A stretch of 64,000 bases of DNA, taken from the NCBI RefSeq assembly GCF_012027425.1, contig NZ_SNUE01000001.1, forward strand, positions 1 to 64,000, written 5' to 3'. The stretch comes from Thermococcus sp. MV5. GTDB taxonomy: Archaea; Methanobacteriota_B; Thermococci; Thermococcales; Thermococcaceae. Positions 9,058 to 12,768 of the stretch are shown piece after piece. How positions within the stretch are numbered: position 1 is the stretch's first letter; every line of letters starts with the position of its first letter. A model generated the notes under the pieces. That model was not told the DNA's origin. It searched no databases and was given only the letters and a program-made list of their open reading frames with translations. The position numbers were made by a program, and so were the translations under genes.

Positions 9058-9240
9058 ATTTTACCACCTCATATTATAACGCATTTAAAGTTTAAAAGCA
9101 TATCTAATATGTCATGACTCTTCCAGAAAGTAGGATACTATTTCCTCATCTATAGGGAGTTTCTTTGAGGCTTTTTCCACGCATGGGCCAAGTGTATATT
9201 TTACTCTATTGCTGACTGAAAGAATAAAATAATAACATAA

Positions 9241-9255
9241 TTAAATAATTATTGC
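9241..9255 (+). promoter_or_regulatory. Partition-type site 1 (left arm plus spacer)
   Basis: TTAAATAATTATTGC matches the left arm and spacer of the full palindromes at 9413 and 9905, but the right arm is lost. It retains the core AATAATTATTG. Confidence 0.5.
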
Positions 9256-9412
9256 AATTCCTGTTACATTGATCAACTGTTCCTCTCTTAGATGTTCAAG
9301 CGAGGGGCAATAGAGCTGTTACTACATCCCCACTAAGAGTCATGTCTGTTAATAGCAATTTAATCCTCTCTCATCCCTTGAATTTCTCTCCCTTTTTTAA
9401 ATAATAAAGTAA

Positions 9413-9436
9413 TTAAATAATTATTGTATTATTTAA
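9413..9436. promoter_or_regulatory. Partition-type site 2 (complete palindrome)
   Basis: TTAAATAAT, the spacer TATTGT, then ATTATTTAA: perfect 9-bp arms around a 6-nt spacer. It is the same architecture as the site directly before parA. A further half-site lies just upstream, near 9396. Confidence 0.65.
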
Positions 9437-9904
9437 TAATGTGATATGTTTTTTGCAGGATACGTGGCCCTATCAGAGAAGGCCAATACATGCCTGTATA
9501 AATTATCTACTATCAAGAATAATAAAAATTTGGTATTTTTTTACTATGATTTATTTTATTAGTAATAATATATTCATTTGTTCTTAATAATAAACTAATA
9601 AAGTATAATAACTGTGAAAAAATTTTATTTTGTAATTAAAAATTATTTATAGTAATTGATTTATAACTATACCTTTAAGTAAAAAATTAAGTCAAAGTTT
9701 GAGAGTTGAAAGAGCACCAACTTATTTCATAAATATAAAACATTAAGATTAGTATTTAAAAAGGCCAAATTAAATCCCATTTTCCACCCTTTAAATCTAA
9801 ATTAATAGTCTAATTGCCCCTAACAGATACTCAGAAATCACTCCATCCTTACACCACCTCAAAATGGATACCTTCCCCTGAAATCTCAATATTCAGCAAA
9901 GTTA

Positions 9905-9928
9905 TTAAATAATTATTGCATTATTTAA
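9905..9928. promoter_or_regulatory. Partition-type site 3, at the parA promoter
   Basis: TTAAATAAT, the spacer TATTGC, then ATTATTTAA ends 13 bp before the parA start codon. A centromere-binding protein sitting here could both autoregulate the operon and mark the DNA for segregation. The position overlaps where the core promoter must be. Confidence 0.7.
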
Positions 9929-9941
9929 TTATGGTGATCAA

Positions 9942-10724
9942 ATGGCGATTATAATCAGTATTGCTAATCAAAAGGGTGGTGTTGGAAAGACTACAATAAG
10001 CCTCAATCTGGCCCATGCGCTGGCCAAAAAAGGGTATGATACCTTAATAATCGACACTGATCCTCAATTCAACCTCACGTTTGCTCTAATCGGCATGGAT
10101 ATCATCAACTATAGTGACAACAACATAGGCACTCTTCTCATAGAAAACTCAGTGAAAAAGACTCAAATTGAGGAGGCCATAGTCCACATAGATGAGAATC
10201 TATCTCTCATACCTTCCCATCTGAAAGTTTCCGCGATTGAGAGATTGCTTATGACAGCATACATGCGCGAACAGCGGCTCAAAAGAGTTTTAGAAAAAAT
10301 TGAGGATGAATATGACTTTATAATCATTGACAACCCCCCAAGTCTCGGAATATTCTTAATAAACTCTCTTGGGGCCTCGGATTATGTACTGATCCCAACT
10401 GAGTTAGGATACTTTAGTGTCATGGGAGTGCAGTTAACACTTGATGTGATCAGGGAGATAAAGTCCACCGAACTCAACCCAGACTTAGAGATCATGGGGA
10501 TCGTTGCAAACAAATTTACACGCCAGAGCAAAGTTCCTCAGGTGAGGCTAGATCAGCTAAAAGAGGCCTATCCCAACTTACCGATAGTTGCCATTTTGCC
10601 AAGGGCAGTTGCAGTTGAGAAATCTCAAGAAGAGGGTAAGCCTGTATTTGAGTTTGAACCAAATAATAGAGTATCCAAAGCTTTCCTAAAACTTGCGGAG
10701 AGTGTGATCAAAAATGTCAGGTAA
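9942..10724 (+). CDS. parA: ParA/SegA-type partition ATPase
   Basis: A 260-residue deviant-Walker ATPase of the ParA/Soj/SegA family. Walker A is KGGVGKTT (residues 11-18) with the signature lysine; the A' region is IIDTDPQFNLT and Walker B is FIIIDNPPSLG. It lacks an N-terminal DNA-binding domain, as in type Ib ParA and archaeal SegA. GGTGATCAA precedes the ATG. The gene overlaps the next one by 11 nt, and palindromic sites flank the pair. It should drive segregation of a replicon or of the chromosome by ATP-dependent non-specific DNA binding. Confidence 0.92.
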   Translation: MAIIISIANQKGGVGKTTISLNLAHALAKKGYDTLIIDTDPQFNLTFALIGMDIINYSDNNIGTLLIENSVKKTQIEEAIVHIDENLSLIPSHLKVSAIERLLMTAYMREQRLKRVLEKIEDEYDFIIIDNPPSLGIFLINSLGASDYVLIPTELGYFSVMGVQLTLDVIREIKSTELNPDLEIMGIVANKFTRQSKVPQVRLDQLKEAYPNLPIVAILPRAVAVEKSQEEGKPVFEFEPNNRVSKAFLKLAESVIKNVR

Positions 10725-11052
10725 AAGTAGAAAGAAAACGCTTCCCAAGCTCCCCTCTATGAGCAGTGAGGTTGTGAAAACCCTAACTGAAGAGCCAAAA
10801 AACAGCAGGACAAACGCAAGGAAAGATACTGAGAAAAAGATGAAGACACTATACATAAGTGTGGATGCAGATAAGCTGTTAAGATTACTCTATGCTGAGG
10901 GTGAAGGCAAACAGAATGAAATCTTTGAAAAGGCTATAAAACTGTACTGGGCCCTTAGAGAGGTCTTACCAGAGGAGAAGTTTAGAAGATTGATAAAACT
11001 GGCCGAGAAAAAGGAAATCGAGAAGATAACACAGAGATTGGAGTTCAAGTGA
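10714..11052 (+). CDS. SegB/ParB-like ribbon-helix-helix centromere protein
   Basis: A 112-residue protein. Residues 1-43 are basic and probably disordered (SGKSRKKTLPKLPS). Residues 44-75 read as a ribbon-helix-helix (KTLYISVDADKLLRLLYAEG, then EGKQNEIFEKAIKLYWALRE), followed by a charged helix. Size, disordered arm and RHH core resemble archaeal SegB and small ParB/ParG proteins more than classical HTH ParB. It is translationally coupled to parA, with its ATG inside the parA 3' end, and is presumed to bind the TTAAATAAT-N6-ATTATTTAA sites. Confidence 0.75.
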   Translation: MSGKSRKKTLPKLPSMSSEVVKTLTEEPKNSRTNARKDTEKKMKTLYISVDADKLLRLLYAEGEGKQNEIFEKAIKLYWALREVLPEEKFRRLIKLAEKKEIEKITQRLEFK

Positions 11053-11076
11053 TTAAATAATACAATAATTATTTTA
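11053..11076. promoter_or_regulatory. Partition-type site 4 (inverted orientation)
   Basis: TTAAATAAT, the spacer ACAATA, then ATTATTTTA begins one base after the segB-like stop codon. The spacer is the reverse complement of TATTGT, so this copy points the other way from sites 1-3. One arm base differs from perfect. Confidence 0.6.
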
Positions 11077-12008
11077 TTATTTTATTGTTGTTTTAATTTT
11101 AGGTTGATACTCTCTCCTCCCACTCTTTACCGATTGTTAGGAGATTTATAAACAACTGAAAAAACTCAATAATAATTATTGAAAGCACGGAACATTAAAC
11201 GGGTTTAATTTTACTTGAGAAAATGTGCTCTCTGAAGGATACGCCCTAATAATAAACTCCTTTGTCTAAAAGTCCCTTGTTCTGACGATTTTTATCCTGG
11301 TAACACGGTAACATCCCATAGTTCTCTATCAAAAGTATGAACCCAATCTTTGTGGATGTTTTAAATATAGAAAAAAGCCCGAATATAGAAACATCTTTTT
11401 CCAGTATTGAGCAGGGCCATACTACATAGTGCTTCTGAAACCATATGCTAGAAAGCTTCACTCACCAATTAGAAGTAGGGTAAAACCCGTATTTAACACT
11501 TTCGAAAGAAAAGAGTTTTAAAATTTCAAAGTCCCAAAGAACCTTAAACCTAAAAATATCAGTCCACAAAGTGTAAAAATAATATTCCAAAAATCTTCAT
11601 TGTGAATGTTAGTATTCAACCTCCCCTATCAATCCTCTTAAGAAAACAAAACTCTAAAAAAGAGTTAGATCTGACGAGTTTTTGAAAAGAAAAGTGGGAT
11701 TTCTAAGACATTTTTTAGGGTAACCCAACATAGTTAATCCTTTTAAGTCCACTGGGGAAATATCAAAATCCACAAATTCTTTTTTACGGATATAAAAATA
11801 CTCCAATTTTTAATAAGCATTCAACGCCTTTACTTAATTATTCAAAGATTCTAAAGGCCCTTAAAAGACTTGTAGAGCTAGATAATAGCTTCTTTAAGTT
11901 CCAAAATGAACACTTGTGTACAGAACATCTGCAGGAAATCAAAACGATAATAACACACTTTAAAATCCAAAGCCAACCAAACTAATGATATAATGATAAA
12001 AACAAAGC
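11077..12008. other. Gene-poor region with a fifth site and a possible gene remnant
   Basis: CAATAAT-A-ATTATTG at 11167-11181 is a perfect palindrome sharing the core of the partition sites. A plus-strand frame open from about 11742 to a stop at 11983-11985 has no ATG. Its second half (KILKALKRLVELDNSFFKFQ, then NEHLCTEHLQEIKTIITHF) looks like the end of a lost protein of unknown family. A 71-codon minus-strand frame at 11246-11461 does not look coding. The rest shows nothing. Confidence 0.4.
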
Positions 12009-12644
12009 TTAAAACTCATAACTCTTAACACTAAAGCCAAGACCATTGTTTACTCTCCCCAGTTCGACCACCGTAGTTGCAATCTCTTCAAGGAGTGGGA
12101 GAGCCCATGGGATGGCCTCTTCAAGTGCATTAACATTAACAAAATAAAATGCTGTTCTCTGAAAGCTTGAAGTGAATGAGAGTATCATCGATAATGTAGC
12201 GAAAACTTCCCTTGGTGATTCACTTAATATCAAGAGCTTTTCAAAGCCCAAAACGGGGTTAATTATTCGTTTTTCACTATCTAGGTGTGGGAGTGCAACT
12301 TCCAAGTACTCTTTTATTCTTATATGAGGTTCCTTAAGGGCCAAGTGTCCGATAACATCTCCCACGTCTAGTGCTCCTCCAATTTTTACTACCTTAATCC
12401 CATCCAGTACTTCACTATCTAACCCTTTCAACTCCATTTTGATCTTGTAGATAGGCAGGGTGTCAAGGGTGTCATCTATTATCACCTGGTAGTCATTTTC
12501 TTTGGCCCAGATGATTAACTCGTACAAAATAACAGCAGAATTAATAATTGGGGAATATTCAATTAACACCGTTTCTCCTTCTCTTACTTCCTCAAAAAGT
12601 TGGGGGAAGTTCTTTATAAACCCCTTAAGAATATTGGCATTCAT
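12009..12644 (-). CDS. DUF257-family protein
   Basis: A 211-residue protein matching what I know of the Thermococcales DUF257 family: EEVREGETVLIEYSPIINSA, the acidic VIIDDTLDTLPIYKIKMEL, GLDSEVLDGIKVVKIGG and DVGDVIGHLALKE. The fold resembles RecA/KaiC, but no Walker A is present. The start at 12644 follows GGTGATGTTT. Function is unknown. It is intact inside an otherwise decayed island. Confidence 0.7.
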   Translation of the reverse strand: MNANILKGFIKNFPQLFEEVREGETVLIEYSPIINSAVILYELIIWAKENDYQVIIDDTLDTLPIYKIKMELKGLDSEVLDGIKVVKIGGALDVGDVIGHLALKEPHIRIKEYLEVALPHLDSEKRIINPVLGFEKLLILSESPREVFATLSMILSFTSSFQRTAFYFVNVNALEEAIPWALPLLEEIATTVVELGRVNNGLGFSVKSYEF

Positions 12645-12768
12645 AAACATCACCTATTTTCGATATGGCATTTGTTTTATAAAAGGATTTTCTTTTAGAG
12701 ATATTTTAAGCCCATATAGCAAGAATTCTCGGAATAATGTTTATTGATTAGTTGACGATGATTTTCTC

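Follow-up and report, generated by a model that had tools for sequence, protein, structure and literature searches.

A chromosomal locus found in one clade of a Thermococcaceae genus is probably a plasmid-type partition cassette, consisting of a ParA ATPase, a ribbon-helix-helix (RHH)-type adaptor and parS sites, that resides in the chromosome under selection and carries localized iteron centromeres. The locus lies in the 64-kb stretch of DNA analysed here (hereafter the window), which is the first part of a 425-kb contig in an assembly totalling 1.98 Mb. This part of the main chromosome resembles a complete partition unit of the plasmid style, with genes for a motor and for a DNA-binding protein and with five site clusters.

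A ParA gene pair among conserved chromosomal genes

The first-pass annotation of this DNA had proposed a ParA ATPase and an overlapping open reading frame of 112 residues, and both are borne out. The ATPase matches AAA_31 (E 5e-53) and CbiA (6e-28) as well as Soj structures (1e-26 to 4e-32), contains the deviant Walker A motif KGGVGKT within the sequence NQKGGVGKTT, and its gene overlaps that of its partner by 11 bp. Since comparison of the window parA gene with its counterpart in the congener G079 gives a dN of 0.036 and a dS of 0.69, ParA is, as judged from codon substitutions, under purifying selection. The cassette is set among conserved chromosomal genes, with the same flanks in congeners; no mobile-element gene was detected among the neighbouring ORFs scanned, and no other plasmid genes were recognised beside the cassette. 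A DUF257 gene (window 12009-12653), which adjoins the cassette in 4/5 carrier genomes and was not found in G079, is outside the core unit. The locus and orc1/cdc6 are separated by about 750 kb in G079 and by about 660 kb in G076. The locus is thus unlike a bacterial parS, which is origin-proximal, and we count this against its reading as a partition cassette.

Family searches returned no match for the 112-aa partner. Its position and size fit those of a small RHH centromere-binding protein encoded beside ParA, and the single match of a partner-family profile in the PDB is the RHH omega repressor (E 0.26), which is suggestive, but not proof, of an RHH fold. The AlphaFold model, which is of low confidence (pLDDT 57), places a KTLYIS strand before two helices. 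This putative DNA-contacting strand is common to the window partner and to its ftsZ-linked cousins in other genera (described below), and reads KTLRIK in the Methanocaldococcus jannaschii protein; its occurrence in cousins that lack arrays at their loci, together with its divergence in M. jannaschii, also counts against the partition-cassette reading.

Arrays of an 8-bp iteron at the operon

Palindromic sites had been described around the gene pair, with TTAAATAAT-N6-ATTATTTAA exact at 9413 and 9905, one copy with a single mismatch at 11053, a half copy at 9241 and the element AATAATTATTG common to all five sites. Each of these is present, AATAATTATTG being exact at 9244, 9416, 9908, 11063 (minus strand) and 11171, and the observation holds more strongly than first stated. 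The sites are clustered as claimed, but rather than simple palindromes they are built from an 8-bp iteron (TTAAATAA/TNMAATAA) arrayed in both orientations and in strict 8-bp register; four of those in the window are runs of three to five octamers, both direct and inverted, with the consensus TNMAATAA (Table 1).

Table 1. Genes and octamer arrays of the cassette (window coordinates; distances are relative to parA)
Feature	Position	Strand	Description
parA	9942-10724	+	260-aa ParA ATPase; AAA_31 match
Putative RHH centromere-binding protein gene	10714-11052	+	112 aa; overlaps parA by 11 bp
Array 1	9225..9256	.	four octamers, TAAAATAA TAACATAA TTAAATAA TTATTGCA; weak fifth unit at 9217-9224; at about -725, also in G076, G079 and G080
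Array 2	9397..9436	.	five octamers including the exact palindrome at 9413; 7 units in G079
Array 3	9905..9928	.	three octamers, -37 to -14 of parA; identical in 5/5 carrier genomes
Array 4	11053..11084	.	four octamers; first base directly after the stop codon of the 112-aa ORF
Array 5	11168..11183	.	decayed in the window, AATAATAA TTATTGAA; 4-5 units in relatives; at about +1207 in G076, G079, G080 and G083

Across the carrier genomes array 3 has three units and the other arrays have three to seven, and positions of about -725, -545, -37, +1111 and +1207 relative to parA recur in G076, G079 and G080, as well as in G083 where its contig reaches. Iteron sites are located at the promoter and flank the operon, an arrangement of the type Ib-like/RHH kind. 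The sites are almost pure A+T, as would be expected of AT-rich sequence arising by chance, yet the probability of such an origin is close to nil: four arrays were seen in intergenic DNA compared with 0.05 in shuffles, the window contains seven motif matches with up to three mismatches compared with 0.35 expected from shuffles, a reversed-pattern control gave zero copies in every genome scanned, and between the window and G079 the array bases are 93% identical, compared with 60% for other upstream intergenic bases.

A genome-wide count of the motif, proposed at the outset as a check on clustering, places every match with two or fewer mismatches in the 1.98-Mb assembly at this locus. Likewise, the 16-bp core TNMAATAATTATTKNA is present in four to five copies per genome in four carrier genomes, all of them at the locus bar one in G079, and in zero or one copy in five congeners without the gene pair. 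Sixteen genomes of other genera contain five scattered copies, none of which is at their parA loci, and three exact site matches sit on DNA stretches without the gene pair. The stray copy in G079 is an iteron pair far from the locus (G079:C1:1261751-1261766).

Array 3 is the probable operator and also a probable centromere array. The least demanding role for the arrays as a whole would be regulatory, the 112-aa protein repressing the parA operon and its neighbours with no DNA being moved. This would agree with the location of array 3 just upstream of parA and with the ability of ParG-like RHH partition proteins to repress their own operon (PMC7308502). We nevertheless consider a purely regulatory function improbable, given that the four further arrays, which lie 545-725 bp upstream of the operon or else downstream of it, exceed the needs of autoregulation and are kept across species, that in an M. 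jannaschii plasmid arrays of this octamer extend across about 22 kb, and that ParA is retained under selection.

Distribution within the genus and kinship with a methanogen plasmid

The gene pair is present in 5/13 genomes of the genus (the window genome, G076, G079, G080 and G083) and, in those carriers with a long enough contig, is situated between the same conserved genes. Comparison with relatives revealed four congeners that keep both flanks and from which the pair is absent. Because a 73-bp stretch (window 9677-9749) survives in these empty loci, the difference between carrier and empty loci is not one clean insertion. This noncoding stretch, which has a conserved AGTAAAAAATCAAGTCAAAGTTTGAGAG-like core, is retained in every genus member examined, whether or not parAB is present; an Rfam search gave nothing significant for it, and it may represent a small RNA or a promoter.

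The ParA tree joins the window clade to the ParA of the 58-kb M. jannaschii plasmid (94/91) and sets the ftsZ-linked clade apart (85/88). In view of the long plasmid branch and the midpoint rooting, we take this as moderate evidence for plasmid kinship. Independent support comes from the arrays: an octamer profile built from the Thermococcus arrays only identifies 14 arrays in NC_001732.1 (20223-41883), all of which are noncoding though the plasmid is 75% coding. These occur at 8-bp spacing only, with none at 7, 9, 10 or 11, and scoring with 25 shuffles agrees with scoring against a fixed background. The Methanocaldococcus side of this comparison consisted of plasmids, and the four that served as controls, one of which is equally AT-rich, contain zero arrays. 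On the M. jannaschii plasmid the core AATAATTATTGCATT lies immediately beside the partner gene's stop codon, as array 4 does in the window. The 14 arrays are a probable multi-site centromere of this plasmid, and the chromosomal cassette probably descends from an M. jannaschii-type plasmid.

Other potential sources of kin were set aside. A T. nautili plasmid gave a weak match, but no annotated ParA lies beside it; the ParA relatives on viral contigs are distant, with no more than 36% identity; and matches from a scan of genome contigs were mostly unrelated bacterial ParA proteins.

A captured plasmid locus could alternatively have been turned against plasmids, through incompatibility mediated by the same octamer, or could be a remnant that is being lost. 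Its nearest kin are plasmid-borne and have the same octamer, its presence in the genus is patchy and array 5 has decayed in the window, all of which would be expected of such a locus. Set against this, no Thermococcales plasmid bearing this partition system turned up in the collection searched, and the strong constraint on the arrays and on ParA speaks against a remnant; we therefore regard this explanation as unlikely, favouring a cassette that is maintained for partition.

SegAB and the ftsZ-linked pair

The locus had been called SegAB-like, a description that holds for gene layout, with overlapping genes for ParA and a small partner and sites near the operon, but not for partner homology, since the 112-aa protein has no match to SegB (PDB 7DUV/7DV2) by either single sequence or profile, and the window-partner profile has no significant match to the SegB of the genus itself. 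Moreover, true SegAB is encoded elsewhere in the window genome (G000:C6:56958-58003; L085:7956-9010), where a 102-aa partner that matches SegB (PDB 7DUV, E 4.8e-9) adjoins its own ParA and has a GRGLEALI-like N-terminus. Given that the window ATPase and the SegA of the genus also fall into separate clades of the ParA tree, there is very little chance that the window locus is the SegAB chromosome-segregation locus, in spite of the shared layout. What stands of the original operator and centromere reading is a ParA and RHH-type locus with clustered sites, which comparative evidence supports well. Sulfolobus SegB sites have the form TCTAGA-S-TCTAGA and are also scattered over the chromosome, and in Thermococcus sibiricus a 2025 study detected no sites of the SegB type in the vicinity of segAB (PMC12284271); the sites at the window locus are A+T-rich octamers.

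Homologues of the 102-aa SegB are present in 12/13 members of the genus, the missing member being a 61% complete assembly, compared with 0/81 other Thermococcaceae. In the other Thermococcaceae genera, 79/81 genomes encode a cousin protein that shares about 30-41% identity with the window partner, next to a ParA that is mostly 49-60% identical to that of the window. At all 16 of the cousin loci inspected this pair sits directly behind the same conserved gene, identified as ftsZ at the locus with Pfam annotation. Across the 94 Thermococcaceae genomes, SegAB and the ftsZ-linked pair are almost mutually exclusive, which suggests that a chromosome-segregation system has been replaced within one family. 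In the genus of the window the ftsZ locus and its upstream neighbours are intact, with no parA behind ftsZ (L193-L197; the pair is present at L069:8385-10766 in other Thermococcaceae), and a small CopG-like ORF is located upstream of ftsZ. One genome from another genus (G035), which is complete as a single contig of 1.5 Mb, is devoid of the ftsZ-linked partner, a close ParA and SegB, and therefore appears to lack all three partition systems.

Discussion

By analogy with the omega and delta proteins of pSM19035, the 112-aa protein would coat the octamers and activate ParA, and array 3 would repress the operon. The parS sites of pSM19035 are contiguous 7-bp repeats that overlap promoters and bind one RHH dimer each, four contiguous repeats being needed for full activation of ParA (PMC9499535). 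Dimers of the putative RHH protein may similarly occupy adjacent 8-bp iterons, in the way that omega lines up on its heptads, and the array at -37 may act as an operator restricting parAB expression. Jointly, the five arrays would make up a localized centromere; its nucleoprotein complex could activate ParA-ATP on the nucleoid and move the DNA carrying the arrays.

Thermococcus kodakarensis is polyploid (PMC5120986), which, with SegAB already present in the genus, places the need for active partition in doubt, and we count this against the proposed function. It is conceivable, at somewhat less than an even chance, that the locus serves an archaeal chromosome as a true localized centromere, in the form of a captured plasmid machine beside SegAB, and that SegAB, ftsZ-linked ParA-RHH and plasmid-type ParA-RHH-parS systems have been swapped and stacked within the family. 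The appearance of archaeal centromeres, including whether they are clustered or dispersed, counts among the listed open questions (PMC5120986), and a second system beside archaeal SegAB in a small group of heat-loving archaea provides a test case. Comparative genomics predicts a defined 8-bp recognition unit for a family of ParA partners that had been unannotated, and as the same octamer occurs on a methanogen plasmid and in a Thermococcales chromosome, both binding and partition are directly testable.

Amongst related systems, the pair on the 58-kb M. jannaschii plasmid (NC_001732), for which a limited literature search found no characterisation, has a ParA with 59% identity, a partner with 35-38% identity, the same 11-bp overlap and the same octamer arrays, but is plasmid-borne, with its arrays extending over about 22 kb. 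The ftsZ-linked ParA and small partner belong to the same protein family and have the same gene order as the window pair, but occupy another genomic place, behind ftsZ in the examined loci, and are without octamer arrays. SegAB of the Sulfolobales and Euryarchaeota also combines ParA with a small DNA-binding partner, overlapping genes and sites near the operon, although its partner is unrelated by sequence to that of the window. The delta-omega system of pSM19035 likewise pairs a ParA ATPase with a small partner and has contiguous short iterons, direct and inverted, in several arrays, one of which is at the parA promoter; it differs in that the window unit is 8 bp rather than 7 bp, with an unrelated iteron sequence, in that the window locus resides in an archaeal chromosome, and in the marginal similarity of the window partner to omega (E 0.26).
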